Assembly (NCBI RefSeq): GCF_009653635.1
Contig: NZ_PPFD01000003.1
Location: 372,001 to 436,000 of the forward strand
DNA from: Endozoicomonas sp. OPT23
GTDB lineage: Bacteria; Pseudomonadota; Gammaproteobacteria; Pseudomonadales; Endozoicomonadaceae
Direction: 5' to 3'
DNA: 64,000 bases
Below the pieces are notes generated by a model. The model was not told where the DNA came from. It did no database searches and saw only the letters and a list, made by a program, of their open reading frames with translations. The position numbers and the translations under genes are program-made. Numbering within the stretch: position 1 is the stretch's first letter; each line of letters begins with the position of its first letter. This document shows positions 42,230 through 59,121 of the stretch, piece by piece.

Positions 42230-42385
42230 TTCTGCTCCCATCCAGCACATCCCTGCGATATTCCTGTCTATAAAGTATGGACGCATAAAAGAGCCGTTGA
42301 GCAGTATTTCTCAGGCAATTTTTTTATCAGCTGCAATACTTTGCGGTATCCCTTTATAACTGCCTTTCAGGACTCTGTTCTCACC

Positions 42386-43324: not shown

Positions 43325-43345
43325 ACGCTCAAACGAGGCTCAGTA

Positions 43346-43789
43346 TCACTTGAGGCCACTCATGAATTGAACAGCGTTGCTGAACTCTTCATCGGAACAA
43401 TCGCCACAGGTACCACGAGGAGGCATGCTGTTGAAACCGGCAATAGCCTTGTTTACAACACTATCGAAGCTGCCTGCTTCAGACAGACGTGCATTCCATG
43501 CTGCAGAGTCGCCTTTCTTCGGCGCTCCCAGAATACCGGCACCGTGACAGGCACTACAGAACTGACCGTAAACTGCTTCACCGGTGCGTGGACCGCTGGC
43601 AGCTACTGGTGCAGCACCAACATTGCTGGCGCACTCTTCACCCTGCAGGCAAACCTTGGTTACTGGAGCAATTCGCTCTGCAACTTCCTGTCGGGAGATG
43701 TCATCCAGCTCTACCGCAGCAAAAGTCATAACAGAAAAAAGGCCGCCAATCAGGGCCATAATAAAACGCAGTTGTGTTACCCGAGACAC
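43346..43789 (-). CDS. Cytochrome c5-like protein
   Basis: 147 residues from a GTG preceded by AAGGGG. N-terminal signal peptide or anchor (LRFIMALIGGLFSVMTFAAV). One haem-binding motif FCSACHGAG; the methionine ligand is likely the M in FNSMPPRGTCGDCSDEEF. The CxxC in the C-terminal part and length match cytochrome c5 (monohaem electron carrier in the periplasm). Convergent with the Usp gene. Confidence 0.9.
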   Translation of the reverse strand: MSRVTQLRFIMALIGGLFSVMTFAAVELDDISRQEVAERIAPVTKVCLQGEECASNVGAAPVAASGPRTGEAVYGQFCSACHGAGILGAPKKGDSAAWNARLSEAGSFDSVVNKAIAGFNSMPPRGTCGDCSDEEFSNAVQFMSGLK

Positions 43790-43796
43790 TCGCCAT

Positions 43797-44219
43797 CCCC
43801 TTTATAATAAAGCTGCTCCAGACCCTGAACAGACTGTAGCTTCTCGTTTTTCATAATAGGTTCACACTGCGTCTTCAGGCCAGTCGTGCTGGCAGTTATG
43901 GTCACTTCCCATTGTCCCAATGAATAAATGAGGCAGTGACTTTTGAATTATCAGACCGCAATGAAACCGATTGTTCTTAAGCATGCGGATTATAGAACAG
44001 TTGAATAAGGTAAAACAGCACTTTCCAAGCCGTGCCAGTGGATGAAAGAGGACAACACTTGAGTGTTGCACACAAAACATCGTACATTTACCTAGAAGCA
44101 GCTAAATTCGCCTTTCAGCAAGCGTTGAGGTGTATTTCACCCCGACAAAAAGCCATAGACAGGATCAGTTCTGATCAGTAATATTGGCCACCGCTGGAAG
44201 CCCATGCTGCCAGTCGTTT
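43797..44219. other. 420-bp gap before tRNA-Arg
   Basis: No gene can be supported. A 72-codon reverse ORF at 43862-44080 has an unlikely composition and no ribosome binding site. A GATCAG/CTGATC dyad lies near 44163-44177 and may belong to the tRNA promoter region. Confidence 0.4.
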
Positions 44220-44296
44220 GCACCCGTAGCTCAGCTGGATAGAGTATACGCCTCCGAAGCGTAAGGTCGCGCGTTCGAATCGCGCCGGGTGCGCCA
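44220..44296 (+). tRNA. tRNA-Arg (anticodon CCG)
   Basis: 77 nt including encoded CCA. Acceptor GCACCCG (44220-44226) pairs with CGGGTGC (44286-44292), discriminator G, CCA at 44294-44296. Anticodon stem TACGC/GCGTA encloses loop CTCCGAA with anticodon CCG (44254-44256), reading CGG arginine codons. D loop AGCTGGATAGAG and T arm GTTCGAATC are standard. Confidence 0.96.
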
Positions 44297-44306
44297 TATT
44301 TAAAAA

Positions 44307-44337
44307 AGCCCTGCTTGTTTCAAGCGGGGCTTTTTTT
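44307..44337 (+). terminator. Rho-independent terminator after tRNA-Arg
   Basis: An 11-bp stem (AGCCCTGCTTG / CAAGCGGGGCT, one T-G pair), 3-nt loop, seven T, starting 10 bp after the tRNA. Confidence 0.93.
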
Positions 44338-44548
44338 ATAGTTCTAATAAATAAGTGTTAATACACTTTCCACTTCGGCTATACCTCGCGGTTTAAAGCT
44401 AAAAGTTTGATGCACCTCAAAGACCTCACCTATCTCGAGACAGCAGGAAAAGCAGTTGATTTAAGTCAACACTTAAAGCACTCATATAATTAATGTATTC
44501 ACTGTTTTTTTAACCTTCCCCTTAATCAAAAACTTCAGGTAATACACT

Positions 44549-45268
44549 ATGGCTGGCACTCCCCTGCACGACAGGAAAGTCTCTGTGGGCAGTTATATTG
44601 CTCTGGCTTTCGCCATTGTCTTCTTTTCCGGTTTTATGAAATCCGCTGAATGGTACGGTGTCTTCGACTTTACGACACTGAACGGCTCGTTCGGTAAAGT
44701 TGTTTATGCTGTCAAGGATACGGCTGAAGGCATACAAGCCAGCACCTATACCATGCGTGGTAAAGGTGGCAGCGGCGCCCGTGACGGTTTCATCTTTGCC
44801 TTCACACTGATTCCTACCGTTATGTTCGCACTGGCCATGATTGAAGTGCTGGAACACTACGGTGCACTGAACGCGGCCCGAAAACTACTATCTCCTCTGC
44901 TGAAACCTCTGATGGGTATTCCAGGCGACACTGGTCTTGCTCTTATCGCATCTCTTCAGTCTACCGATGCCGGGGCGTCGATGACGCGAGGGCTTATCGA
45001 TGAAGGGAAGCTGAAAGAGAAAGAAGCGGATGTCTTCACTATGTTCCAGTTCTCTGCCGGTGCCACCATTGTTAACTTCTTCTCTTCTGGCGCCATTCTA
45101 TTCACGCTGACCAATACAGACGGCTCTGCTGCAGTACCTGCTTCTATTGGTCTTTGCCTGATCGTGATGTTTGTACTGAAAATCTTTGGTGCCAACATGA
45201 TGCGACTTTATCTGACCATGGCTGAAAAGAAACAAGCAAATACTGGTGTACATGGAGAGGCAGCATAA
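44549..45268 (+). CDS. YjiH-like nucleoside-recognition (Gate) membrane protein
   Basis: 239 residues with several membrane helices and the Gate/nucleoside-recognition type sequence GDTGLALIASLQSTDAGASM, FSAGATIVNFFSSGA. Similar to E. coli YjiH. Its stop overlaps the start of the YjiG-like gene (TAATG). In E. coli yjiH-yjiG precede the isoaspartyl dipeptidase gene iadA; here an M20 peptidase follows, so the two halves probably form a transporter for a peptide or amino-acid conjugate used by it (inference). Confidence 0.85.
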   Translation: MAGTPLHDRKVSVGSYIALAFAIVFFSGFMKSAEWYGVFDFTTLNGSFGKVVYAVKDTAEGIQASTYTMRGKGGSGARDGFIFAFTLIPTVMFALAMIEVLEHYGALNAARKLLSPLLKPLMGIPGDTGLALIASLQSTDAGASMTRGLIDEGKLKEKEADVFTMFQFSAGATIVNFFSSGAILFTLTNTDGSAAVPASIGLCLIVMFVLKIFGANMMRLYLTMAEKKQANTGVHGEAA

Positions 45269-45732
45269 TGTCTGAAGTTACTAAAAAACCAATGATCACC
45301 GACGTATTTGTTGCCGGTGCCCGTAAAGGCTGGAACATCGCCGTTACCAGTACTGTCCCTAACGTTCTGATGGCTTTCGTTGTTATCAAGGCGCTGAAGA
45401 TTACCGGCCTGCTGGATATGATGGGAACAGTGTTTGCTCCTGTTATGGCTGTGGTTGGCCTGCCCGGCGAAGCAGCTGCTGTGTTAATGGGCGCCTGGAT
45501 GTCCATGGGCGGTGCTGTTGGTGTTGCTGTTTCCCTGTTTGATTCCGGGCACCTGACTGGTGAGCACCTGGCTATTCTGGCTCCTGCCATCTACCTGATG
45601 GGCTCACAGATTCAATACGCTGGTCGTATTCTTGGCGTAGTCGGCACCAAAGCGAAACTGATCCCTATCATGATCGGCTTCTCTGTCTTGAATGCCTTCA
45701 TTGCCATGTTCCTGATGAACATCCTCGTCTGA
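45268..45732 (+). CDS. YjiG-like membrane protein
   Basis: 154 residues, four to five helices; GWNIAVTSTVPNVLMAFVVI, PGEAAAVLMGAWMSMGGAVG and LMGSQIQYAGRILGV match the YjiG/SpmB-type partner of YjiH. Start codon overlaps the upstream stop. Ends 60 bp before the M20 peptidase gene. Confidence 0.85.
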   Translation: MSEVTKKPMITDVFVAGARKGWNIAVTSTVPNVLMAFVVIKALKITGLLDMMGTVFAPVMAVVGLPGEAAAVLMGAWMSMGGAVGVAVSLFDSGHLTGEHLAILAPAIYLMGSQIQYAGRILGVVGTKAKLIPIMIGFSVLNAFIAMFLMNILV

Positions 45733-45792
45733 TACCCTTTCAAATAAGCAGGGAGCCTGGGCTCTCTGCTTTTCTGTTTTATGGAGTTACCC

Positions 45793-46917
45793 ATGAATTT
45801 TGCACTGGATGCATATTTGGACGAGCTTCGTCCTTTGATCGATGTGGACTGCGGTACGCTAACCGTAAGCGGTATTGAAACTGTTGCCGGGATTCTGACT
45901 GAAAAATATCAGCAACTGGGCTGGAATATTAAGCAGGTCGACCTGGGTGAAGCAGGTTGCGGTCTGGAAGTTCGCAATAAGCCTGACGCTGAACAGATTG
46001 ACCTGATGATGGTCGGTCATATGGATACTGTTTTTCCTGAAGGCACTGTCGCTGAACGACCAATGACCTTTGATGACAAATGCGCATATGGCCCGGGCGT
46101 TTCCGATATGAAGTCCGGCCTGCTGAATGTTATCTACGCTCTGCGTGCTATCGATGAAGATGTTCTCGATAAACTTTCCATCTGTGTCTGTATGAATCCG
46201 GATGAAGAGATTGGTTCTACCTATTCCCATGGATGGCTGGAATCAGTTGCCAGCGAAGCAAAGCAGGTTCTGGTAGCAGAAGCAGCCCGCGCTGATGGAT
46301 CTCTGGTTAAGGCTCGCAAAGGCATGGCTCGCTACGACATTGAGTTTCATGGCAAGGCGGCTCATGCCGGTAACGAACCAGAGAACGGCCGTAGTGCTAT
46401 TACTGAAATGGCCCATTGGCTGCTGGCGATTAATGAACTGACCAACTTTGAAACCGGCACTACCTTCAATAATGGTGTTGTTTCCGGTGGCGCTGGTGCC
46501 AACATAGTTCCGGATTATGCCAAGATCGTCGTTGATATCCGCTTCTGGGATAACCGTGAATACGAGGCCATGGATGAGAAACTAAAATCCATGACCGAGA
46601 CACCATTCACTAAAGATATTACTGTCTCCATTAGCAGAGCCGCTCATAAACCCGCCATGGTACCTTCAGATAAAACAGTCAATCTAATGTCTGTGGTTGA
46701 AGAGTCCGGCAATGAGCTTGGCATCGAAATTAACTGGAAAGAAGTTGGTGGTGGTTCCGACGCTAACCTGACAGCAGCTATGGGTATACCCACTCTGGAC
46801 GGTTTGGGGCCTATTGGTGGCGGCTTCCATAGCTCAGACGAATACCTTGACCTGAGCTCCATTGAACCTCGTATTAATCTACTGAAAACCGTTATCTGCA
46901 AACTGGCTAACGCTTAG
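45793..46917 (+). CDS. M20 family metallopeptidase (carboxypeptidase G2-like)
   Basis: 374 residues from the ATG at 45793, which has GGAG at a good distance; an ATG at 45781 is upstream. Zinc-site motifs: VGHMDTVFPEG (HxD), GPGVSDMKSG (bridging Asp), NPDEEIGS (catalytic Glu pair) and GGGFHSSDEY near the C-terminus (His). Dimerisation domain KARKGMARYDIEFHGKAAHAG (in parts). The family removes C-terminal or amide-linked glutamate or related residues. Last gene of the YjiH-YjiG unit; followed by a terminator. Confidence 0.9.
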   Translation: MNFALDAYLDELRPLIDVDCGTLTVSGIETVAGILTEKYQQLGWNIKQVDLGEAGCGLEVRNKPDAEQIDLMMVGHMDTVFPEGTVAERPMTFDDKCAYGPGVSDMKSGLLNVIYALRAIDEDVLDKLSICVCMNPDEEIGSTYSHGWLESVASEAKQVLVAEAARADGSLVKARKGMARYDIEFHGKAAHAGNEPENGRSAITEMAHWLLAINELTNFETGTTFNNGVVSGGAGANIVPDYAKIVVDIRFWDNREYEAMDEKLKSMTETPFTKDITVSISRAAHKPAMVPSDKTVNLMSVVEESGNELGIEINWKEVGGGSDANLTAAMGIPTLDGLGPIGGGFHSSDEYLDLSSIEPRINLLKTVICKLANA

Positions 46918-46925
46918 AAACATCC

Positions 46926-46956
46926 AGGTCTGAACGCTTGTTCAGGCCTATTTTTT
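46926..46956 (+). terminator. Rho-independent terminator after the M20 peptidase
   Basis: AGGTCTGAAC / GTTCAGGCCT make a 10-bp stem with a 4-nt loop and one T-G pair, followed by A and six T. Confidence 0.92.
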
Positions 46957-47033
46957 ATTTCTTTCCTCTATTAGGTTGTCTACTAAACTGCTACCTCAAC
47001 ACAAATTTTAATTCCTATTAAATAAGGTCGTAA

Positions 47034-48491
47034 GTGTTGGGCAGAAAGAATCTGTTTTTTTGCTGGTTGTTCATTCTTGGCTCTGTGCTTACGCCTAATG
47101 CCAAAAGCAGCTTATTTGATCTCGGTTATACACTAACCGACCCATTGCCTTTATTTTATAAAATAAATCTATCTACTTATTCTCTTTATGGCCCTCCGCC
47201 CAAATGGCTTCACTTTCCAGACATACTCCCAGAATCACAAGAAAAACAAGCCATAGTTGAAATCCCCTCTGAAGACCCTTGTGGGGATGATCAACAAGAG
47301 TTGCCTACAGAGGATATTCTGGATGATCTATCACCAGAATCATTAAAACAAAAAATGGTGAGCAACCTTGATAACCTTTCTCAGCAGTTGAACCGTCGTG
47401 ATGGTACAAAACTGGTATTGGTTTTTGATCTCGATAACAGCCTCATCAGCAGCACTGATACTATTCAGAAACTATTCTCTCTGGATCAACATACCGCCAC
47501 TGACCTTCAACAAGATTGGTTAAATCAACTAGCAGACTTTACTTCGAGTCATTCAGAGAAATTCATTGTGATCTACAACACCAGTCGTTCTATCCCCAAA
47601 ATCAGGAGACAGAATGGCAAACAAAGCAACTACCCAATAGATTTACAAAGTCTGTCTACCCGGTCTAGCGCCAATAATCCCATGGTGAGTTTTCAGGAAA
47701 AAGCGAATGATTCATCGGTAGAAAGCAGCTATGCGATACCTCGCCCTGATGTGCTCATCAGCAGTCATGGTTTAAATATTGAATTCACTCTGGAGCACGA
47801 TGAACATACTCACCAAATAACTCAGATCAATGAAGGGCTGATGAGCTTCTACCGTGAAGATCACCCCAAACATAAGGACACATGTACACAACGAGGACTC
47901 GTTGATGTTGATGGAGCCTCGATCAAGTGGAACAGTGGTGAGAACTACTGCATTCTCACACCACTTATCTCTTCGCCCATTCAATTCAGTGCTAACCATC
48001 TGCAACAGCCTGACCCGACCCATGTATTCAGTGCTGTTGTAAAACCTGACAATGTCATTAAAGAGAGTTATATCCAAAGCATTACTCTCAATAAAGGCAC
48101 CAGCCTTCGCATTGTGACTCAACTGCTCATAGAAATGAGTCATCTTCAAACAGGCAGGTTTTTAATCGTAACAGTGGGCGACTCTCATTTGGATCTGCCG
48201 ATGCTGAGACCAGATCTTGAAGCCAAAGCAGCAGGCAAGATTTCTCAAGCGGCTGTAGATCAACGAGAACAAGCAGTTTCCGGGCTATTAGGTGGCAATT
48301 CTGCAGCAGATCTGCTCGCCCATCACTGGCTACTCAGTATCAATACTGATCCGGACAATATTCCTCAGGATCTCAATAGCTATACAAGAGCAGTCTTCGA
48401 TCACAAAAAAATAATCACCCTGCCCTATAAACAAAGGGGACTTCCTTTCGTCATCGAGAATATCGTTGAGTCTCTCAGTTCGGATGAATAG
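47034..48491 (+). CDS. Exported HAD-superfamily phosphatase-like protein
   Basis: 485 residues from a GTG. Signal peptide: MLGRKNLFFCWLFILGSVL, cleavage near PNAKSS. HAD motif I VFDLDNSL (D132, D134), motif II FIVIYNTSRS, a lysine in LNKGTSLRIVTQLL as motif III, and motif IV TVGDSHLDLPML (D383, D387). That order, with a cap between II and III, resembles sucrose-phosphatase/Cof-type HAD enzymes, but with an N-terminal export signal and a ~110-residue extra N-terminal region. Cysteine-containing loops suit a periplasmic or secreted place. Substrate unknown. Confidence 0.75.
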   Translation: MLGRKNLFFCWLFILGSVLTPNAKSSLFDLGYTLTDPLPLFYKINLSTYSLYGPPPKWLHFPDILPESQEKQAIVEIPSEDPCGDDQQELPTEDILDDLSPESLKQKMVSNLDNLSQQLNRRDGTKLVLVFDLDNSLISSTDTIQKLFSLDQHTATDLQQDWLNQLADFTSSHSEKFIVIYNTSRSIPKIRRQNGKQSNYPIDLQSLSTRSSANNPMVSFQEKANDSSVESSYAIPRPDVLISSHGLNIEFTLEHDEHTHQITQINEGLMSFYREDHPKHKDTCTQRGLVDVDGASIKWNSGENYCILTPLISSPIQFSANHLQQPDPTHVFSAVVKPDNVIKESYIQSITLNKGTSLRIVTQLLIEMSHLQTGRFLIVTVGDSHLDLPMLRPDLEAKAAGKISQAAVDQREQAVSGLLGGNSAADLLAHHWLLSINTDPDNIPQDLNSYTRAVFDHKKIITLPYKQRGLPFVIENIVESLSSDE

Positions 48492-48502
48492 CTACTTGGC
48501 TG

Positions 48503-49504
48503 TTACATTTTTAGTTGCTCACGATACTCTGATGGTGACATCCCTTTCTGCTGTTTGAACCAGTGATTCAAAGCTCTGGCGTCACTAAAGCCAAGCAGAG
48601 AAGCAATTTTCTGGAAGGCCACACCTCTATTAATGTGACCAACCAGAGACTCCATACGAACACCATTATAGAGTTGGGTAAAACCCGTACCATTTTTCCT
48701 CAAAGATCTTTGTAATGTTTTTTCAGTCAGCCCTAGAGATAAAGCTACGGTTTCAAGCCTAACAGGACCATTTGGTAACAGGCTATTGATAGTATTTTTC
48801 ACTCTCTGTGCCAGTAAGAATTCGTCCTGAAAGATAGCTAACTGTCGCTCAGCTTTATCAATTAGATACTGTTTAATGCCAGTATCGAAGCCATAGGGGC
48901 CTATTAATCTGGCCTGATCATTTATAACTATGGCTGTTCGGGGTTGATCAAAATATACGGGGCAGCCGAAGAATCGTTCGAAGTATTCTCGCCTACTACC
49001 TTTCTTCAGGGAATGTGAGTAATGGATAGATTCAAATGGTGAATTATATAACTTTAAACTTTTTATAAAATGCATCTCTGCAGCAAATATATACTCACGC
49101 AGAAAGGACACCACTTTAGGTTCATCGTGCTTTATCAATAGAATGATTTCACAATTTTTTTCATTTTCAATAATAGCAAAATCAACAAGATCCGTTTTAA
49201 TAGGCAGATATTTACAGACTAATCGGTAAGCTTCCTTCATGTTAGGCTCTAGTTTGAACATATCAGAGGTAAAACCATAAGACACAGGAGTTCTTTTTTC
49301 AGCACACTTCAGTGAGGCATTCCCCTCCTTACAACTACTTTCTATTTTCTCTATCAGCCCCCAAAACAGAGGACTCTCTGTATATTCGTCAGGGTTCTGT
49401 CTGATCGACTCAATCTCACCACCCAGCTCAGCAAAATCCACTCCAGTTTCATATGCATAATCCAATAGTGGGTAAATCATGAAGTTGATTACATAATTAG
49501 TCAT
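48503..49504 (-). CDS. AraC-family transcriptional regulator
   Basis: 333 residues. An N-terminal AraC-type ligand-domain region (Arabinose_bd-like) and two C-terminal HTH units, TVALSLGLTEKTLQRSLRKNG-like (here ETVALSLGLTEKTLQRSL) and IASLLGFSDARALNHWFK, ending KGMSPSEYRE. Divergent from the subtilase/integrin-like lipoprotein with 196 bp between, and therefore its candidate regulator. Convergent with the HAD gene. Confidence 0.9.
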   Translation of the reverse strand: MTNYVINFMIYPLLDYAYETGVDFAELGGEIESIRQNPDEYTESPLFWGLIEKIESSCKEGNASLKCAEKRTPVSYGFTSDMFKLEPNMKEAYRLVCKYLPIKTDLVDFAIIENEKNCEIILLIKHDEPKVVSFLREYIFAAEMHFIKSLKLYNSPFESIHYSHSLKKGSRREYFERFFGCPVYFDQPRTAIVINDQARLIGPYGFDTGIKQYLIDKAERQLAIFQDEFLLAQRVKNTINSLLPNGPVRLETVALSLGLTEKTLQRSLRKNGTGFTQLYNGVRMESLVGHINRGVAFQKIASLLGFSDARALNHWFKQQKGMSPSEYREQLKM

Positions 49505-49700
49505 CGACTTAGTACATCCATGCTACTTGCCATAAATTCAACACAGCGATCCGTCCGAATTGATCACCTTACTTCCAGATTCATCAACTGTTTTTTGGAG
49601 TAAATCTTAGTAAAATCATGTCCTGCAGGACAATAATTAAACAATATATCGTTGTCGTATGATTTAAAAATAAAATATTGCCAACAAGGATGTTGAAGAC

Positions 49701-52550
49701 ATGATTCCTATCAGGAAAGCACTCCTGACGTGTATGCTAGCCTCACTTCTGTCAGCGTGTGACGGTGGCGGTGGTTCTTCTAGTAGCGCGCAAACTCCAG
49801 AATCTGGGCAACCCCAGAGTGGAAACCAGCCAGAGACCTTGTCTCCTATACTGCTAACAGAAGTTGTGCCCGCAAATGCACAGGTGGGTGACACTGTCAC
49901 ACTAAAAGCCGCTGACAGTATCCCTAACTCTACAAGCCTGACCCTTTCCGGGACAGTTATTACACCAACCGAAATTTCAAATAATCAGGTAACTTTCGTC
50001 GTTCCTGAAAATGCCAAATCAGGTCCTTTGTCTCTAAAGACGGACAAAACAACCTCTAACACCCTTCTGTTTTCTGTCTCTGATCTTGGGGTCAGAGCCC
50101 CGAAGCAGAATAAAATCGTTGCTGATGAGGAAGGTAATAAGGTCGTTATTGACTATGTATTAGCCGTTCTCTCTCCAGCTAAAGACAGCAAGACTGAAGC
50201 GGACAGAGTTGCAGGTCTGATAGATGGTTCAGTTATTGGCCGAATAGCCCTGCTAAATGGCTGGCAGATAAAAGTAAATGCTGATGACCTTGAATCCTTA
50301 CAGGCACAAATAAAAACTCTGGAAGCTGATACCTCTGTGGACTTTGTGGTTATAGACACTGAGGTCAGTAATGATGCTATTGACTGGTCAACCGACGCTC
50401 AGTTCGGACAGCAGAGAGATCGCAACAGGGTTACTGAGGGTGCAGAACTCTATGCCAGTAAAGTCAGCCCCACACTAGCAGACGATAAAATACTGCCTTT
50501 TTTCATGACAATAGGTGCTTCAGAATCTGGCGTTGATTTCAATAGTGCTGATTTTGATGGCTACCTGAACAGCGACGCATCAACCGGAAACATTACTATT
50601 TACGCTCCTCATAAAGCATCAGTTCATGGAACCAATGTCACGGGGCTAATAGCGGCAGAACTAGGGGACTCTGGTAATGCAGGCTTACTTAGTGCTCTTT
50701 CTGACTACCACGGTGGTGCTAACATTTCTGTAACCCAAGGCACCAGTAGTTATTTTTCAGGTATTTTCAGTTTGCTTTCCAGTGCTGAAAAACAACTGGA
50801 AGCCGGTGCATCGGTACTCAATTGGAGCTGGGGTATTCACAAGCAGGGAATAAACCAGTGTGATGGAAACTCTGTTACCGACAATGTCTACCCAGCCTTC
50901 TTGTTTGATGTATATAAAAGAGTAATTGAAAGATTTTTTATCAAACTCGAATCGAAATACCCAAGAACAGTTGTAGTCGCCAGTGCTGGTAATGGTCGTA
51001 CCAGTATTGAGAGTAACAGTCGTTTGCCTTCAGGGTATGACAGCCCGCAGATGATTGTTGTTTCTGCACATACTTCCGGTGGAACCCTATCTTCTGACTC
51101 AGAGAATACAGATGACAGGCAAGCAACCAGCAGTTGTTTCGATGCAGCCATTAGTACTGATGTTAAAAGAGCTTCTTACTCAAATTTTGGTCGGAAAGTT
51201 GACCTTGCTGCGGCAGGAAGCATTAGCGGCTACAACGGCGTCAAACAGGGCACGTCATATGCGACACCTCTTGTGTCTGCGACTATTGCACTTATGCAAT
51301 CTGTTAACCCTAACCTGACTCCAGCTGTTATTAAGTCTCTTTTGAGAAGCTCTGCGCTTCCTGTTGAAAATAAAGTTGTACTGGAAAGCGGTGAGTCAGT
51401 ATTTACACGTCCGCTATCCGATAGTGAATCTTCCGCAAATAGCGGTAAAGGGGCAAGACTTAATGTTGAAGGAGCTGTACAGGCTGCAATTGACAACCTA
51501 GGTTCAGAAACATTGTCAAAAGGTGATCCAGTTATTGTTGCTATCCCTGCCGGCACAGATCAAATTACTCAAACCGTTAATATTACTATTCCTGGAAAAA
51601 GCGAAGTCTTCGATAAAGTCGATATTATGTTTACTGTGGATGTGTCCGGAAGTTACAGCGATGATATTGAAACATTCCGAGACAAAGCCAATAGTCTGGT
51701 AGAAGCATTTAGTAACAGTGGCACAAATGTCAGCATGGGAATAACCAGCTTCAGTGACTTTCCTCAAGCTCCATACGGAGCAGGTCCTTATGTACCCGGG
51801 GAACCAGAGGAATCAGAAGAACCACCTGAAGCAGGACCTTCCATCGTTGAAAGTCTGTCAGAGTCAAGTTACGACTATGAATTCAGACTGGACCTTCCTC
51901 TTACCTCAGATAGCTCTCAGGTCAGTGATACTCTCGACGCATTGACTATTAAAAATGGCAATGATTTTCCTGAGAGCCAGCTAGAAGCTCTTTACCAAAC
52001 TGCTCTGCCTGCCACAGGCTGGAGACTCGGAGCTCTTCCTGTAATTTTCCTTGCTACTGATGCCGAGTTCCATGACTCAGACATTGATTCAAAATATCCA
52101 GGAACAGGCCGTAGCAAGGTTGTAACTACGCTCAAAAATAAAGGAATCAGGGTATTTGGTCTGCAGGCGGGCGGTGATATTAACGACGTTCTTAGTATAA
52201 CTTCTGATACGGGAGGGCAATCATTCAAACTCTCAAGAAACAGTGCCGAGATTATTGATGCTGTCACTGCAGCCCTCGATTCCACCACCAAAAACCTCAG
52301 TGTTACTCTAGAGCCCTATGGCGACTTTGCCAGAGTTATTCATAGCATCGTTCCTACAGACTCATCTTCATCTCCTAATGGTTCTGCCATAAAAAATGTG
52401 AATCCAGGAGACAACATTAGTTTTGATGTGACCTTCAATAAAGGTATTTTCAACGACTCGCGTACTCATAAACTGTCATTCCGCTTAAGAGTGCAGGCTG
52501 ATGGTGTTGCAACTATTCAGGAAATCCCTGTCGTTCTGCAAATAAATTAA
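49701..52550 (+). CDS. Lipoprotein with subtilase domain and integrin-beta-like VWA domain
   Basis: 949 residues. Lipoprotein signal ending LLSAC (Cys ~20), a Gly/Ser linker, an IPT/TIG-like domain (~residues 45-130), a prodomain-like region (~135-225), then an S8 fold: H309 in HGTNVTGLIAAE and S519 in QGTSYATPLVSA are present, but the first triad position reads ESG (E275) instead of DTG. Residues ~635-860 form a VWA domain with MIDAS DVSGS (D647, S649, S651), then ITSFSDFPQAPYG, NDFPESQLEALYQTAL, GWRLGALPVIFLATDAEFH and DAVTAALDSTT, which follow the integrin beta-I order. The last ~90 residues look like a beta-sandwich. Outer-membrane anchored adhesin or protease is the inference. Confidence 0.85.
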   Translation: MIPIRKALLTCMLASLLSACDGGGGSSSSAQTPESGQPQSGNQPETLSPILLTEVVPANAQVGDTVTLKAADSIPNSTSLTLSGTVITPTEISNNQVTFVVPENAKSGPLSLKTDKTTSNTLLFSVSDLGVRAPKQNKIVADEEGNKVVIDYVLAVLSPAKDSKTEADRVAGLIDGSVIGRIALLNGWQIKVNADDLESLQAQIKTLEADTSVDFVVIDTEVSNDAIDWSTDAQFGQQRDRNRVTEGAELYASKVSPTLADDKILPFFMTIGASESGVDFNSADFDGYLNSDASTGNITIYAPHKASVHGTNVTGLIAAELGDSGNAGLLSALSDYHGGANISVTQGTSSYFSGIFSLLSSAEKQLEAGASVLNWSWGIHKQGINQCDGNSVTDNVYPAFLFDVYKRVIERFFIKLESKYPRTVVVASAGNGRTSIESNSRLPSGYDSPQMIVVSAHTSGGTLSSDSENTDDRQATSSCFDAAISTDVKRASYSNFGRKVDLAAAGSISGYNGVKQGTSYATPLVSATIALMQSVNPNLTPAVIKSLLRSSALPVENKVVLESGESVFTRPLSDSESSANSGKGARLNVEGAVQAAIDNLGSETLSKGDPVIVAIPAGTDQITQTVNITIPGKSEVFDKVDIMFTVDVSGSYSDDIETFRDKANSLVEAFSNSGTNVSMGITSFSDFPQAPYGAGPYVPGEPEESEEPPEAGPSIVESLSESSYDYEFRLDLPLTSDSSQVSDTLDALTIKNGNDFPESQLEALYQTALPATGWRLGALPVIFLATDAEFHDSDIDSKYPGTGRSKVVTTLKNKGIRVFGLQAGGDINDVLSITSDTGGQSFKLSRNSAEIIDAVTAALDSTTKNLSVTLEPYGDFARVIHSIVPTDSSSSPNGSAIKNVNPGDNISFDVTFNKGIFNDSRTHKLSFRLRVQADGVATIQEIPVVLQIN

Positions 52551-52561
52551 GGAGTGAAAGA

Positions 52562-52834
52562 ATGAAATACTTACAACTGGTCGCAGTCCTGACAGTACTA
52601 TTCTGCTCTTTCCTAAGAGCAGAGGAGTCATGCACAGCTGAAGTGTCTGATAATGGTCAGCAGTATCATGTAATGAACAGTGCAGGCCAGAACCTTGGCT
52701 ATATAAGCCCCAATGCTGACGGGAGTTGGTTTATGTGGATTGATAGGCAAGGTGCTATGAATCAATCGGCTGACAATCTGTATTCCGCTTTGGAAACGGT
52801 ATGCCAGTCCAGCGCGCAAGCAAAATCAGAATAG
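52562..52834 (+). CDS. Small exported protein downstream of the subtilase lipoprotein
   Basis: 90 residues, 11 bp after the large lipoprotein gene with GGAG before the ATG, so almost certainly in the same transcript. Signal peptide MKYLQLVAVLTVLFCSFLRA, cleavage near LRA-EES. The mature ~70 residues have two cysteines (SCTAEVS and TVCQSS), probably one disulphide, and repeated NLGYISPNADGSWFMW-like beta character. It could be a partner or inhibitor of the upstream protein; unproven. Confidence 0.7.
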   Translation: MKYLQLVAVLTVLFCSFLRAEESCTAEVSDNGQQYHVMNSAGQNLGYISPNADGSWFMWIDRQGAMNQSADNLYSALETVCQSSAQAKSE

Positions 52835-52879
52835 TGTCAAAGTAGTATAACTATGCATTGGGCTGAAGCCTCTCTGGCT

Positions 52880-54499
52880 TCAGCCCCACTCCACATACAA
52901 TACTTCAAAAGGAATATCTTTCCCGGTAAAGAAGTCGAGCCAACGTTTCTGGTTTTCCTGCAGTTTATCACCCGGCCCTTTTACTTCAGACCACCGATAC
53001 TCACCTGTTTCAGGCTTAAACAGTATCAAGTCAGGAAAGCCCGTTCGATTATGGGCAATATCAAACATCAGCTTACCGAATACCGCTTTAAAATGTTCCT
53101 CTGGAATCAAATCACAGGCTAGAGTAATCATCTCTTCAGTCAGCACAGACCAATGCACCAGTCTGTTAGCAATACCCTGTTTGTCCCGGTATGTTTTTAT
53201 AACCTTTGATTTAAAACTGTTCTGATTAATTTCAATAATTCTTTCTTTAATTTGCAGACTTCTTTTTTGATAGAAATCATTAGTCATTAAATCGGCAGGT
53301 GCCGACTGAAAAGGGTGAAAGAAAGCATCTTTGATATCAGCAAAAATAACGTCCCAGAAGTACAGACCAGCCAACCCGCTTATCAGACTGTTCTCAGCAT
53401 AGAATGCCTGCCAGCCCTGTTGCTGGTAGTAATCCAAAGCAATCAGTTCAACTCTTTGGTCAGACTCTGCCAGAGCAATATAAACTTCAGGATACTGACG
53501 CCGATTGCGCCTCGGCTTCTCACCGTTGAACTTGCTGATAAAGCGTTGCGCAAAAGCTAACTCCATATCACTGAAAGGTTGCTCAATTATTTGCTGGCAA
53601 ACTCTGATTGCAGCCTGATTCTCACTTTTCTTATCCAGAATACGAGCCATTCTTTCTCTGGCCGGCGGCATGCTGGATTGCTGAAAGAGTTCAAGCGCTG
53701 ATGAATAACTCTGCTGTCGTTCAAGCTCTCTGGCTACACGGTTTATCAACCGGCTGTAACGCCGCAACATCAAAGACTGGTCTGGTTTAGCTGGAATCTC
53801 ATCAACCAGAGATATCAAGGTTCCCGTATCACGATTATATTCAGCTTCCGCTGCAATGGCTGCCACTTCAGACAACGCCAAAGCTTCTTCCATTTGCTCT
53901 CTGTTTTTAAACAAACGATTCTGCTTATTTAATGGATATTTTTCATACTGGGTAATCCCTAGATCACTCAATACAAACTCGGTGAGATTCTGATAGAGAT
54001 TGCCGAAGAACAGGAATTTAAAGCTAGTAATTTCCAGAGTGAATTCCGGTTTATAGACAATAAATGGCAGTTCTGGAACAGTGATATTCTGATCAACAAG
54101 TATCGATACCAGTTCACTTTTCTTTTTACTTTGATGCCCATTTAAATGAGTTCGAAACTGTTTTACCAGCTCGGGCTTAGTCAACAATCCGGCAAGCTCA
54201 TTAACCGTTAAAGCAGGGTTGATAACAAGCAACCTTTGATCAGCCAACTGCTGAGCAGCAAAATCAAGACGATCAATTTCTTCATAGCTGAGTTTGTCTG
54301 CCCTGAAGAATTGCCCTTTTCGGCTGATCAGCCTTACGTATAGTTTTCTAGGTTCATCACCAAGAGAAAACCAGTGCTCCAGAAAAGACTTCTCTTCAGC
54401 ATTTAGCAGATCATCATACTGGTCAGCCACAAACCCGAGAAACAACTGAAAGTTGGTCAGGTAATAATCATCGGGAATATTCGCCGGTTCTGCCGCCAT
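52880..54499 (-). CDS. FAN1-type VRR-NUC structure-specific nuclease
   Basis: 539 residues, the expected bacterial FAN1 size. C-terminal VRR-NUC active site: GFPDL (D490) and SEVKGPGD (E505, K507) with spacing as in Pseudomonas FAN1. Upstream regions carry the SAP-like DNA-binding part (YVRLISRKGQFFRADKLSY; LLTKPELVKQFRTHL), and TPR-like helices in the middle. The family cuts 5' flaps and resolves interstrand cross-links. Sits alone, divergent from a small conserved gene. Confidence 0.93.
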   Translation of the reverse strand: MAAEPANIPDDYYLTNFQLFLGFVADQYDDLLNAEEKSFLEHWFSLGDEPRKLYVRLISRKGQFFRADKLSYEEIDRLDFAAQQLADQRLLVINPALTVNELAGLLTKPELVKQFRTHLNGHQSKKKSELVSILVDQNITVPELPFIVYKPEFTLEITSFKFLFFGNLYQNLTEFVLSDLGITQYEKYPLNKQNRLFKNREQMEEALALSEVAAIAAEAEYNRDTGTLISLVDEIPAKPDQSLMLRRYSRLINRVARELERQQSYSSALELFQQSSMPPARERMARILDKKSENQAAIRVCQQIIEQPFSDMELAFAQRFISKFNGEKPRRNRRQYPEVYIALAESDQRVELIALDYYQQQGWQAFYAENSLISGLAGLYFWDVIFADIKDAFFHPFQSAPADLMTNDFYQKRSLQIKERIIEINQNSFKSKVIKTYRDKQGIANRLVHWSVLTEEMITLACDLIPEEHFKAVFGKLMFDIAHNRTGFPDLILFKPETGEYRWSEVKGPGDKLQENQKRWLDFFTGKDIPFEVLYVEWG

Positions 54500-54568
54500 G
54501 CCACTGCCAATAGCTGAAATAACCAGCTAAGATTAACAGCTCATTTATTGGATAGGCACCCTGCAGTA

Positions 54569-54829
54569 ATGTCTGAAGAAGATCTGGTCACCGAAGAGCA
54601 TCTGATAGAGATTGTTGAAAACCAGCTGACCGAGAATAACCCTCCTCGCGTGAAGGAAACCCTGTTCAGGCTGACCATGTCTGGCATGGAACGTCCTGAA
54701 GCGATGGAATATATCGCCTGTGCCCTGTCTGTAGAGATTGTTGATGTAATCCAGAACGATGCCAAATTTGATGGCGACCGCTACATCAAAAATCTGGACT
54801 CCCTGCCTGAAACACCCTGGATGGGCTGA
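54569..54829 (+). CDS. Small conserved hypothetical protein
   Basis: 86 residues from the ATG at 54569 (TTG at 54548 is less likely). Acidic, helical, no signal peptide: VENQLTENNPPRVKETLFRL, MSGMERPEAMEYIACALSVE, ending LPETPW. I recall similar short proteins in pseudomonads, without function. It is 69 bp from the divergent FAN1 start. Confidence 0.68.
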   Translation: MSEEDLVTEEHLIEIVENQLTENNPPRVKETLFRLTMSGMERPEAMEYIACALSVEIVDVIQNDAKFDGDRYIKNLDSLPETPWMG

Positions 54830-54881
54830 ACACCCACTCCTCAGGCAATCAAGACGTTAGCTCATACTGATTGCCTGGCCT

Positions 54882-54946
54882 GCTTTCCTGACATGCTTTC
54901 CTGACATAGTTTCCTAACACGATTATCTGACGTAATTACTTAACGT
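54882..54946. repeat. Five tandem 13-bp degenerate repeats
   Basis: Consecutive 13-mers GCTTTCCTGACAT, GCTTTCCTGACAT, AGTTTCCTAACAC, GATTATCTGACGT and AATTACTTAACGT. The first two are identical and the rest drift, keeping the pattern TT-(C)CT-AC. The array is in the ~220-bp leader of the thioesterase gene, which has no other clear feature apart from an inverted repeat CAGGCAATCA/TGATTGCCTG just upstream. Confidence 0.75.
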
Positions 54947-55046
54947 AAGCGCCCCCTAATCCATTAGGGTCATGCCGTCTAAACAGCTCTTTCTTTAAGT
55001 TATTCCTAACTCTCAAAAAAATGCCTCCAAGAAGAATAACAATAAA

Positions 55047-55715
55047 ATGTCAGACTCCAACGCTCCCTACGATAAGCCTGAATGGAAAACGCCGGAATCA
55101 CCTACCTGGGCAGCCCGTCGTCGTGCCGCAGAAGCCGCCCGAAAGATGATTGAAAACTTTGTGATCTGTACCGCTGAGGAAGACACTCTTAACCAGCTAG
55201 CCGATCAACTGGAAGCGGCGGCAGAAAAACTGGCAGAAACACCCTTAACTAACGGGCGCTTTGAGGGCTCAGGTCTGAAAGAAGAAACTTTCAACGACCG
55301 TGGATATGAGCTAGGCCCTGTTGAGGGCCGATGCAACCCGCTGGCAGCACCACTAACCACATGGATTAATGACAAAGGCGTTCATGGCAGAGTAAATATG
55401 GGCTGGCGTTACGAAGGCCCTCCTTATACGGTGCACGGCGGCCATGTAGCGGCACTGTTTGATCAGTTTCTCGGGGTAGGTCAGAAAACCACCGGCACTC
55501 CTGGTGTAACCGGCGAACTATCCATTCGTTATCATAAGATGACGCCGCTCAATACCGATCTGGAGCTGTTTGGCTGGCTGGAAAAGTCGGAAGGCCGGAA
55601 GATCGTTATGTCCGCTGAAATCAGAGCCAATGGTGAAGTCACAGCTTCCTGCAAGTGCCTGTTTATTCGTTTGAGCAAGGCGTCTGTCGAGCAGATTCAT
55701 CAGAAGACTATGTAA
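55047..55715 (+). CDS. PaaI-type hotdog thioesterase
   Basis: 222 residues. Hotdog signature YTVHGGHVAALFDQFLGVG; GELSIRYHKMTPLNTDLELFG and SAEIRANGEVTASCKCLFI are the core strands. These enzymes cleave acyl-CoA thioesters. The N-terminal ~75 residues form a charged helical extension. Substrate unknown. RBS not strong; start ATG at 55047 is the first in frame. Confidence 0.86.
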   Translation: MSDSNAPYDKPEWKTPESPTWAARRRAAEAARKMIENFVICTAEEDTLNQLADQLEAAAEKLAETPLTNGRFEGSGLKEETFNDRGYELGPVEGRCNPLAAPLTTWINDKGVHGRVNMGWRYEGPPYTVHGGHVAALFDQFLGVGQKTTGTPGVTGELSIRYHKMTPLNTDLELFGWLEKSEGRKIVMSAEIRANGEVTASCKCLFIRLSKASVEQIHQKTM

Positions 55716-55767
55716 TTACATAGCCTTCTGCTTGAGGGAATGAGTTCTAGCTGCTGGAGAACAGTCT

Positions 55768-56262
55768 TTACACTCTTCCCTTTCTCGAATTTATAAACCG
55801 TATTTCCTTAACGCTGCGATTTCTGAATAGCAGTGATGGCAGCGATACGCCAATAGCCAGCGCCAATAATACAAAGATAGTGTTAAGACCATTTCCCACC
55901 GCCAGAATCAGAAGATCAGCGGATGCTTCCTGAGCTCGGCTGAGCTCCATTAATCCCATCATCGAGCGATAGGCAAACACACCGGGAACCATGGGAATTA
56001 CAGCCGGAGCCATAAATACAGTGGTGGGCGTATGAACCCAGTGAGCAATCTGAATGGCCAGCAAACCCATTGTGCAAGACGCAATCAGAGTGCCTGAAAG
56101 CAAGTCTCCACCGTAATGAAGTGTGATTCCGCGCAAGCCGTATCCCAGAGCGGCCAGTAGCGCCGTAGCCCAGAACACTCTTATAGGTGCAGTAAACAGT
56201 GTCGCAAAACCTATAGCCGCCAGAGCTGCCCACAGGCATTTTTCAAACAGTATCCAGGTCAT
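55768..56262 (-). CDS. yjjB: YjjB-type half of a threonine/serine exporter-family transporter
   Basis: 164 residues, about five membrane helices, DUF3815 type: FMAPAVIPMVPGVFAYRSMMG is diagnostic. Forms a pair with the YjjP-like protein; in E. coli YjjPB is linked to succinate export. Start overlaps the YjjP stop (TAATG). Confidence 0.9.
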   Translation of the reverse strand: MTWILFEKCLWAALAAIGFATLFTAPIRVFWATALLAALGYGLRGITLHYGGDLLSGTLIASCTMGLLAIQIAHWVHTPTTVFMAPAVIPMVPGVFAYRSMMGLMELSRAQEASADLLILAVGNGLNTIFVLLALAIGVSLPSLLFRNRSVKEIRFINSRKGRV

Positions 56263-57068
56263 TATTGATTCACTCCCAGCAGGCCAGAGCTAAGCACAAT
56301 GCCCATGGCGATGGAAAAGGCGATCACCACACCCTGCATGGCTCGCCCCTGACCAATCGTGATATGGCCATGCATCAAATCGATAATGCCATTAATCATA
56401 GGAACGCCCGGGATCAGAAAGAGCACCGATGTGGCTACTGCTATTTCCGGACTTTGACCAATCTCCAGTGGAATACCAATGCCACTGATACCGCTGGCAA
56501 TGAACGACGCTGAACCAACACTCAGTGCAAGGTTGTAGCCTCTGTGCAGCAGTGCATTTCTGGTGGTGAAGCCCAGTGCTGTTGCCACACCGGCCAACAG
56601 CATTGCCAATGGCTCTCCACCCGCCAGACGACAGAATGCCATGCCAGCCAGGCTGATCATGGTGACCAGCTTGATCTTTGAATAATGGGGAATGCTTCTG
56701 ATCCGCTCTACTTCTGTGCGAATCTCGATAAGCGTCATGTCATCAACACCTGCTTTCCAGCTCAAACGACTGATTGCAGATACCACACTCATATTCACAC
56801 CATAACCTTTGATACGCCGAAAGGCCGTATGCTCAAAGTCATCACAGTGATCATTAGTCAGTGTCAGGGTGACACCAGAGAAGGAGAAGAAGGCTTGAAT
56901 ATCATAGCCAAGGGCCTTGGCGATTCTGACAATGTTCCGGTTCACCCGTTCGGTGTGAGCGCCGGAAGCCATCAGCAATTCAGCGATATCCAGAAGAAGG
57001 TTGGAGCATTCACGATGCCGGTAGTTACCTCGGGCAACTACCGGCCTTTCGGCAGGTTCAGTAGGCAT
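56262..57068 (-). CDS. yjjP: YjjP-type half of a threonine/serine exporter-family transporter
   Basis: 268 residues. DUF1212/ThrE N-terminal soluble part (LLDIAELLMASGAHTERVNRNI, FFSFSGVTLTL, RIKGYGVNMSVVSAISRLSW) and C-terminal helices (SFIASGISGIGIPLE, LFLIPGVPMINGIID). Pairs with YjjB in a translationally coupled unit. Confidence 0.9.
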   Translation of the reverse strand: MPTEPAERPVVARGNYRHRECSNLLLDIAELLMASGAHTERVNRNIVRIAKALGYDIQAFFSFSGVTLTLTNDHCDDFEHTAFRRIKGYGVNMSVVSAISRLSWKAGVDDMTLIEIRTEVERIRSIPHYSKIKLVTMISLAGMAFCRLAGGEPLAMLLAGVATALGFTTRNALLHRGYNLALSVGSASFIASGISGIGIPLEIGQSPEIAVATSVLFLIPGVPMINGIIDLMHGHITIGQGRAMQGVVIAFSIAMGIVLSSGLLGVNQ

Positions 57069-57161
57069 GAAAACAGCATAGGCAGATTAAATCAGTTGTG
57101 AACTATAGCCTGTTTTCATAGGTCGCTTAGCTGATACCTGTCAACGCGAGCCAATAAAACC

Positions 57162-58016
57162 TTATCGATCTCCACGACCTGCACCACGAATGCGAGGGTC
57201 TTCGTCATAGCTTTGGGTCGCTTTGGTACCTGATTCCGGTTCCAGAGTCTGAATGGTGACACCACCATCAATATCCAGAATGGTGCCGGTAATATAGCTG
57301 GATGCTTCTGATGCCAGAAACAGTGCACCATCGGCAATTTCATCACTGGTTCCCCAGCGTCTCAACGGTGTTCCTTCTTTAATTGCGTCGTACATTCCCG
57401 GCTTTTTCAGGATGACATTTTCCATTCCCCAGGAGCCTTCAATCGGACCAGGTGAAATACCGTTAACGCGGATACCTTCTGGCCCCCACTCAATAGCCAG
57501 TACTTTACAGAGCATGTTTACACCAGCTTTGGCAGAACAGACATGAGTCTGATAAGGCATAGGGCGTACCGCTTCAGGCGCAGTAATCGCCATCAGAGAA
57601 GCTCCCGGCTTTCTCAGGAAATCAAAAGAGGCTTTGAATACGTTAAACGTTCCCAGAAGGTCAATATCAATAATGGATTTGAACGCATTGGCACTCATGC
57701 CAACGGCTGGGGCATAGAAATTACCAGCCTGACCAGCCACCACGATATCAATGCCACCAAAGGTTTCGGCGGTGATTTTCATGGTTTCATAAACACGATC
57801 GTAGTCGCGTACATCACCTGGCAGACCAAGCGCTTCAGCGCCCATGTCACGAATTTCCTGAGCGGCCGACTCGGTACGGTCAACTGTACGACTCATTACT
57901 GTTACTTTGGCGCCCTGCTCTGCAAATCGCTTGGCGATCTCCAGATTAAAGCTACGGGTTCCACCAGCAACGTATGCAACCTTGCCTTCAAGGGTGCGTT
58001 CTTTAAATGCCGACAC
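57162..58016 (-). CDS. SDR oxidoreductase resembling 2,4-dienoyl-CoA reductase
   Basis: 284 residues. DECR2/SPS19-like pattern: AGNFYAPAVGMSANAFKS, DIDLLGTFNVFKASFDFL, HVCSAKAGVNMLCK (K163), LAIEWGPEGIRVNGISPGPI, ASSYITGTILDIDGG. As in peroxisomal 2,4-dienoyl-CoA reductases, no YxxxK tyrosine is present. The nucleotide-binding glycine motif is unusual: AGGTRSFNLE (17-26) instead of TGGGSGIG, so cofactor binding may differ. Function would be reduction of polyunsaturated acyl-CoAs, inferred. Alone, 93 bp from yjjP. Confidence 0.84.
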   Translation of the reverse strand: MSAFKERTLEGKVAYVAGGTRSFNLEIAKRFAEQGAKVTVMSRTVDRTESAAQEIRDMGAEALGLPGDVRDYDRVYETMKITAETFGGIDIVVAGQAGNFYAPAVGMSANAFKSIIDIDLLGTFNVFKASFDFLRKPGASLMAITAPEAVRPMPYQTHVCSAKAGVNMLCKVLAIEWGPEGIRVNGISPGPIEGSWGMENVILKKPGMYDAIKEGTPLRRWGTSDEIADGALFLASEASSYITGTILDIDGGVTIQTLEPESGTKATQSYDEDPRIRGAGRGDR

Positions 58017-58212
58017 AGCACTCTCCCTGTTGTTATTTTTATATTTAGAGTTTTGGAATAATAGTTATCAAACATCAGGATGGCTGTATTCACCTACCGT
58101 CGGCGAACTAGTCAGAATGAACTACTGACTGTAAAGAGAGCATCTACCCACATGAGTGAATAGTCTGGTTATGGTATAAATACTCCAGATGTTCTGTTGG
58201 GAATAAGCAAAA

Positions 58213-58326
58213 ATGATCCAGTTTCTGAAAGACGTAAAAAACATGCACTGGGCTGCCAGATTGATTCTGATTCTGGTGGTTCTGAAAGCTCTGGCTGCCG
58301 TATATCGTGAGCAGGCCATTTTTTAA
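58213..58326 (+). CDS. Possible 37-residue membrane peptide
   Basis: ATG at 58213, TAA at 58324-58326. The peptide MIQFLKDVKNMHWAARLILI continues into one hydrophobic helix (ILILVVLKALAAVY) and a charged end. GGGAA lies 9 nt upstream. It is 42 bp before the zinc peptidase gene on the same strand and could be its leader or a small regulator. Weak evidence. Confidence 0.35.
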   Translation: MIQFLKDVKNMHWAARLILILVVLKALAAVYREQAIF

Positions 58327-58368
58327 TTCAACCAGCTACAGATAATAAAAAGTAAAAGGACGGATTAA

Positions 58369-59052
58369 ATGCATTTTGCACTATTGGGGCTACTGATCAT
58401 TCTGCTGGTTGTGGCTCCTCAGTACTGGGTAAAGCGCACACTCAATCGACATGGTTCAAACCTGAAAGCTATGCCCGGTACAGGTGGAGAGCTGGCCAAC
58501 CATCTAATTGAAAGGTTTGAGCTTAGCGGTGTTACGGTTGTGAAAGGCGGGCAGGGTGAAGATTACTATGACCCTTCCCGAAAGCTGATTTCCCTTTCAC
58601 CCCAGCATTACGAAGGCCGTTCCGTCGCCGCTGTTGCAATAGCTGCACATGAAACCAGCCATGCTTTGCAGGATCAGGAAAACAACCCTGATTTTTTACG
58701 CAGAGAAAAAAGGATTCGTCTGGCTGTGAGTATTCAGCAGTTCAGTTCTATCGCTCTAATGATTTCACCACTGATTTTTCTGCTGACACGGGCGCCTCAC
58801 AGTATGTTGCTGACTGCTCTTATCGGCATCAGTGGTATGGTGGCTGCTATCTGGGTTCAATTTCTTAACCTGCCCATTGAGCTTGATGCCAGCTTTAAAA
58901 AGGCTCTGCCCATCCTTTCGGAAGGCTACCTGCCTGATGAACACCTACCTGCCGCCAACGAAGTTCTTAAAGCCGCTGCATACACCTATGTCGCAGCAGC
59001 TCTGGCCAGTGTGGTCAATCTTGCACGCTGGGTAGCCATTCTTAGACGATAA
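58369..59052 (+). CDS. YugP-type membrane zinc metallopeptidase
   Basis: 227 residues. Short N-terminal membrane anchor, zinc motif AIAAHETSHALQDQEN (HExxH), two to three further helices, and LPIELDASFKKALPIL as the conserved block after them. This is the Zn_peptidase_2 (YugP) family, membrane-bound neutral peptidases of unknown substrate. GGCGGATTAA-type sequence just before the ATG is a weak ribosome binding site. Confidence 0.9.
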   Translation: MHFALLGLLIILLVVAPQYWVKRTLNRHGSNLKAMPGTGGELANHLIERFELSGVTVVKGGQGEDYYDPSRKLISLSPQHYEGRSVAAVAIAAHETSHALQDQENNPDFLRREKRIRLAVSIQQFSSIALMISPLIFLLTRAPHSMLLTALIGISGMVAAIWVQFLNLPIELDASFKKALPILSEGYLPDEHLPAANEVLKAAAYTYVAAALASVVNLARWVAILRR

Positions 59053-59121
59053 TCAGCCGCAGCCTTTGTTGGTCTGTACTAGCCTGTAAAAACTCATACA
59101 TCTGATTACAGGTTGGATAGC

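Follow-up and report, generated by a model that had tools for sequence, protein, structure and literature searches.

The window analysed here is a stretch of 64,000 nucleotides from Endozoicomonas sp. OPT23 (contig NZ_PPFD01000003.1, positions 372,001 to 436,000, forward strand), and the subject of this report is a single gene within it, which encodes a predicted lipoprotein that joins a subtilase to a C-terminal region resembling the headpiece of animal integrin beta. The open reading frame (ORF) described in an earlier note made from the sequence alone is present exactly as given there (49701-52550, 949 amino acids), and the motifs that it listed were located at residues 647-651 (DVSGS), 683-693 (SFSDFPQAPYG), 755-766 (DFPESQLEALYQ), 773-791 (GWRLGALPVIFLATDAEFH) and 853-863 (DAVTAALDSTT). 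From the N-terminus, the protein contains a signal, a TIG-like domain, an N-domain of the SprP type, an S8 protease and the integrin-beta-like headpiece (Table 1). The subtilase named in the note is borne out by the Pfam family Peptidase_S8 (residues 270-557, 1.6e-21), and a match to the Pfam family Integrin_beta (8e-15) lies in the same ORF. The same two domains share one protein at two further places, namely in L001, from a gammaproteobacterial metagenome-assembled genome (G585), and on plasmid p1 of Vibrio gigantis LMG 22741, and the three proteins are referred to below as the bearers.

In agreement with the lipoprotein proposed in the note, a lipobox with its cysteine at position 20 can be read by eye (LSAC), and the corresponding readings are LGAC in L001 and LAGC in V. 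gigantis. A low-complexity linker separates this lipobox from the TIG-like domain, for which the evidence is borderline: residues 45-135 scanned alone reach 20.9 bits, which equals the cut-off, but the whole-protein Pfam scan gives 11 bits and the same region of L001 has no match in the Pfam scan. The N-domain of the window protein has no Pfam match.

Table 1. Features of the subtilase-integrin gene and of the region upstream of it (window positions)
Feature	Residues	Position	Strand	Basis or remark
Whole gene, predicted lipoprotein	949 aa, ATG start	49701..52550	+	
Signal peptide and lipobox LSAC, Cys20	lipobox 17-20	49701..49760	+	Read by eye, no predictor used
IPT/TIG-like domain, borderline	52-127	49854..50081	+	Pfam
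N-domain	136-235	50106..50405	+	Alignment with the SprP 'DUF' region
Peptidase S8 domain; triad E275, H309, S519; oxyanion N431	270-557	50508..51371	+	
E275 codon (Glu in place of the catalytic Asp)	275	50523..50525	+	
Hybrid-like sandwich, first half, two predicted strands	606-638	51516..51614	+	AlphaFold model
Integrin-beta-type VWA (beta-I) with MIDAS and ADMIDAS residues	639-857	51615..52271	+	Pfam, profiles, alignment
Pro/Glu-rich insert where integrins have the specificity loop	696-720	51786..51860	+	
Hybrid-like sandwich, second half	858-949	52272..52547	+	Models; tail sequence alone not significant
AraC-type regulator gene, divergent; may regulate the subtilase-integrin gene		48503..49504	-	Pfam; regulation inferred from position
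Perfect palindrome of 14 bp, TGTCCTGCAGGACA, between the two divergent genes; possible operator		49619..49632	.	Function inferred

The integrin-beta-like headpiece

The C-terminal third of the protein had been likened by eye to the integrin beta-I domain, and this was weighed against the alternative that an ordinary secreted VWA protein has been fused to a subtilase, its likeness to integrins being that of any VWA domain with a metal ion-dependent adhesion site (MIDAS). In the Pfam search called for in the note, residues 640-792 match Integrin_beta at 55.7 bits (curated cut-off 24.8) over positions 6-149 only of the 248 in that profile, whereas the competing families score 34.3 (VWA), 28.7 (SIBA-E) and 26.4 bits (VWA_4) in the same protein. 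The generic family therefore does pass its own cut-off and VWA_4 comes close to its own of 27, but Integrin_beta is the higher of the two in L001 (47.5 versus 19.0 bits for VWA) and in the V. gigantis protein (50.1 versus 35.7 bits) as well. VWA (PF00092) is found at four places in the OPT23 genome, and the three outside this gene give no Integrin_beta match. One caution comes from L023 (genome G170), where Integrin_beta gives 32.6 bits but VWA_4 is the better fit (63.0 bits); as the Integrin_beta model can match a protein of the VWA_4 type, scores were compared with one another, and not with cut-offs alone.

Searches against the PDB point the same way. With phmmer, integrin beta-6 is the top match both for the whole protein (1.8e-9) and for residues 601-949, where it leads 57 sequences at E <=0.01 (3.5e-10). 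A profile built from the three bearers returned integrin beta in 59 of the best 60 of 61 matches, at 66.8 to 40.2 bits, and the sole non-integrin among them, collagen VI, scored 33.5 bits, which is 33 bits below the best integrin beta and 7 below the weakest integrin. The second stretch of this profile's alignment, in the hybrid region of beta-6, reaches only 8.2 bits, which counts against a hybrid domain. For a profile of five bacterial proteins (the window protein, L001, L026, L027 and L028), the best 60 of 62 matches are all integrin beta or integrin-beta-2-like (best 3.6e-33), with an alignment extending to position 424 of the beta-3 chain; this result is partly driven by L026, which by itself reaches 116.3 bits with Integrin_beta.

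Residues were assigned to the MIDAS, to the site adjacent to it (ADMIDAS) and to the synergistic metal-binding site (SyMBS) by analogy with integrin beta-3, the SyMBS of which comprises D158, N215, D217, P219 and E220. On this assignment, all five MIDAS residues (D647, S649, S651, E758 and D787) and both ADMIDAS residues (D654 and D655) are the same in every bearer in the alignment. The SyMBS columns read D, G, D, P, E in the window protein and L001 and D, G, N, P, E in V. gigantis, so that the Asn is replaced by Gly in all three, and the Asp at D755 by Asn in V. gigantis. Conservation in all three bearers also extends to the GWR (773-775) and TDA motifs and to the pair P757-E758, which, like the ADMIDAS, argue against a generic VWA; His 791 is kept in two of the three. 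In animal integrins, the beta-I domain carries a disulphide-bonded specificity-determining loop. Such a loop, expected by the earlier note, is not present in the window protein, which has zero Cys in residues 480-949 and instead carries a 25-residue insert rich in Pro and Glu at that place; in L001 and V. gigantis, which lack the insert, the loop is short.

The note had further suggested a sandwich-like tail, to be checked by structure prediction and a fold search. Two AlphaFold runs were made, each from a two-row alignment, with either the window protein or L001 as the first row. Both models are of low confidence (mean pLDDT, the predicted local distance difference test, 48.8 for the window protein and 52.4 for L001; predicted template modelling score 0.42 and 0.43), and the flanking strands are the best-modelled part, with ten-residue pLDDT means of about 60-80. 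The window model places two strands ahead of the VWA (611-615 and 621-629) and six after it (within 866-948), and the L001 model two ahead and five after. Foldseek searches against the PDB (E <=0.001) with these low-confidence models were dominated by integrins, which made up 50 of the best 50 of 141 matches for the window model (best 1.5e-12) and 49 of the best 50 of 110 for L001, at template modelling scores of 0.32-0.55 by query length. The remaining entry, at rank 4 for L001, is a bacterial VWA structure (4fx5), as a generic VWA would lead one to expect. The same alternative gains from the tail itself: a tail-only profile of four rows matches no integrin beta at E <=10. Weighing both sides, we consider a generic VWA domain improbable, and a VWA inserted in a hybrid-like beta-sandwich likely, though not proven, from the predicted topology and the joint alignment. 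The tail was also tried as a sequence family of its own, and this was set aside, as its profile gave five matches, the best of which was integrin alpha-5 (E 0.03).

In comparison with animal integrin beta, the window protein shares a VWA with MIDAS and ADMIDAS residues, GWR, TDA and predicted strands flanking the VWA, and differs in lacking the cysteine-bonded loop, in the Gly at the SyMBS Asn and in the presence of a protease and a lipobox; the PSI, I-EGF, transmembrane and cytoplasmic parts of integrins gave no Pfam matches at E <=1. Integrins serve as adhesion receptors in animals, and relatives of their component domains occur in bacteria; one report mentions a Trichodesmium protein with an integrin-beta-like region, homologous over >450 residues (PMC3192720). 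Integrin_beta matches were also found here in four other bacterial proteins, none of which has an S8 match in the Pfam scans (which, for L026, covered 992 residues of a frame of 1,250). Two of them, L045 (1489-5478; 40.1 bits) and L026 (1462-2238 on the minus strand), are RTX-repeat proteins with an integrin-beta-type VWA, and the second outscores the window protein. L027 (1333-3423; 30.0 bits) and L028 (1273-2565; 28.1 bits), both on minus strands, are a secreted-looking and a PEP-CTERM-type protein with Integrin_beta just above the cut-off, and a sandwich-like tail can be seen in them by eye. In human HC1, a VWA is inserted in a hybrid domain with two strands before it and six after, an arrangement that has been compared with integrin beta-3 (PMC7170535). 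The strand count of the low-confidence window model is the same, whereas HC1 contains another large sandwich and lacks a protease. HC1 does not occur among the best 50 matches listed in either fold search.

The protease half and SprP

The earlier note did not see that the catalytic Asp of the subtilase is a Glu and that the protease half is of the SprP (E-H-S) type. In an alignment with subtilases from loci of related genomes (of 14 candidate loci, 4 lacked the motif and were excluded), the column of the catalytic Asp is occupied by Glu in both the window protein (E275) and L001, and by Asp in all 10 other subtilases. A search of plasmids (21 records matched) led to an S8 peptidase of Pseudomonas aeruginosa with 30% identity over window residues 107-597. 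This protein, annotated only as 'S8/S53 family peptidase' in NZ_CP131792.1, was identified as SprP (PA1242) from its length of 590 amino acids, the residues E262, H299 and S499 and two published peptides. SprP and the window protein are identical at 97 of 269 residues in the S8 domain (36%) and at 25 of 99 aligned residues between the SprP 'DUF' region and the N-domain, and Glu, His, Ser and the oxyanion Asn occupy the same columns in all four of the window protein, L001, V. gigantis and SprP. Like SprP, the window protein combines an N-domain with an S8 domain of Glu-His-Ser type; unlike it, SprP begins with a plain signal peptide instead of a lipobox, stops after the S8 domain and carries no integrin-like head. 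The window protein is thus most aptly seen as an SprP-type protease to which a headpiece has been appended beyond the point where SprP ends.

A Glu in a column where ten other subtilases carry Asp could mean that the S8 part is a pseudo-protease scaffold and that only the head works. Published work describes SprP as an E-H-S subtilase with protease activity that is abolished in the S499A variant (PMC3937732). Its activity requires both the N-domain and the S8 domain, and activation is autocatalytic, with probable loss of the N-domain and of the C-terminal extension (PMC3937732, PMC4618607). Since SprP is active with the same Glu, this residue is no proof of a dead enzyme, and with His, Ser and the oxyanion Asn conserved in all four proteins we give little credence to a pseudo-protease. 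The N-domain may act as a propeptide.

Distribution and neighbourhood

The fusion was found at the three places given above, the G585 contig and L001 carrying the same DNA. The best segment of L001 has 46% identity to the window protein, and the V. gigantis protein has 46% over residues 275-949, the remainder lying beyond the start of the record, on its other side. None of nine congeners has the full fusion; four match the S8 core only and five have no match. Among 390 genomes of the order, Integrin_beta matches occur in two (OPT23 and G170), and among 398 genomes of a phylum sample in one (OPT23). A profile of the C-terminal part matches 9 of 369 genomes of the class, at full length only in OPT23 and G585, and a profile of the full protein has matches to some part of it in 31 of 94 relatives of G585, at full length only in G585 itself. 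A phage or viral origin was considered and not retained, as no relative was confirmed in viral contigs, or in phages for the C-terminal part.

The gene order at the locus was examined in the three of nine congeners that carry the gene for a FAN1-type VRR-NUC nuclease, which lies at 52880-54499 in the window. In all three, flanking ORFs matching window genes are kept on both sides, and none of the six ORFs that were compared from 44549 to 52550, among them the subtilase-integrin gene, has a match at this locus. A neighbourhood shared with L001 was likewise dismissed: of 14 window ORFs (42191-60144), only the gene itself matches within the 14.8 kb of L001. The GC content at third codon positions (GC3) of the gene is 0.358 and the GC of the AraC gene 0.389, compared with 0.464 for the window; this is weak evidence, because a GC3 of 0.363 is also found for the gene at 59113-60144. 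A scattered gene that has probably moved horizontally fits these observations best.

Upstream of the gene, one promoter-like site was found, which is no more than in shuffled sequences, and a search for repeats, and for terminators 3' of the gene, found none. The ORF at 47034-48491 encodes a 485-residue protein with only weak HAD-phosphatase-like matches below the cut-off. On the V. gigantis plasmid (L042, L043), three annotated Ig-like-domain-containing proteins lie near the subtilase-integrin gene.

Proposed function

On balance, and with modest confidence, we read the protein as a predicted membrane-anchored SprP-type (Glu-His-Ser) subtilase that would process itself and whose C-terminal integrin-beta-like headpiece would bind a target in a metal-dependent manner. 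It would be exported as a lipoprotein zymogen, held by the predicted lipid anchor, and, by analogy with SprP, would mature by cleaving itself between the N-domain and the protease. A divalent metal at the MIDAS may then let the head grip an acidic side chain on a target protein, which would keep the protease on a chosen substrate or surface. For a ligand-binding head on a protease, the reading that comes most naturally is that it would direct the enzyme to a surface or matrix protein, with self-association and control of activation as alternatives. Contact with host matrix, as the note proposed, stays conjectural.

Several observations weigh against this assignment. Confidence in the AlphaFold models is low and is poorest in the VWA itself, where it is mostly under 50, and the tail alone recovers no integrin beta. 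By the rule known from E. coli, an Asp at position +2 after the lipid-bearing Cys leads to retention in the inner membrane; this residue is Asp in the window protein, Gly in L001 and Lys in V. gigantis, so that surface display of the window protein would be disfavoured under that rule. The integrin alpha repeat FG-GAP (PF01839), the sole propeller model used, gave 0 matches in the OPT23 genome, and no alpha-subunit partner was identified with that model. Moreover, the C-terminal extension of SprP is described as probably cut off; if the same happened here, protease and head would separate.

Among other functions, the head might serve assembly, with the MIDAS gripping an acidic residue in the same chain or in a second copy and so controlling release of the protease, a scheme modelled on the MIDAS-dependent self-association of human HC1 (PMC7170535). 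The absence of FG-GAP matches from the genome is in keeping with this, but the insert that the window protein carries in place of the specificity loop is more suggestive of a ligand-facing surface that varies, and we regard assembly as unlikely. It would be a long shot that the protease is gated by ligand, with a target bound at the MIDAS causing the hybrid-like sandwich to swing, in the manner of integrin activation, which would free or activate the adjoining subtilase.

As bacterial integrin-beta-like regions and E-H-S subtilases have already been reported, the novelty of the anchored, target-binding protease proposed here lies in the fusion of the two, of which no description was found among the open-licence literature matches listed. 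It joins, in one bacterial chain, a VWA and its probable sandwich, with the MIDAS and ADMIDAS residues retained, to a protease belonging to a class from which an active enzyme has been published. The protein may thus offer a simple test object for the role of an integrin-beta-like head without an obvious alpha subunit, and for whether movement of a hybrid domain can control an enzyme; if ligand gating were true, recognition would be coupled to proteolysis within one anchored chain.
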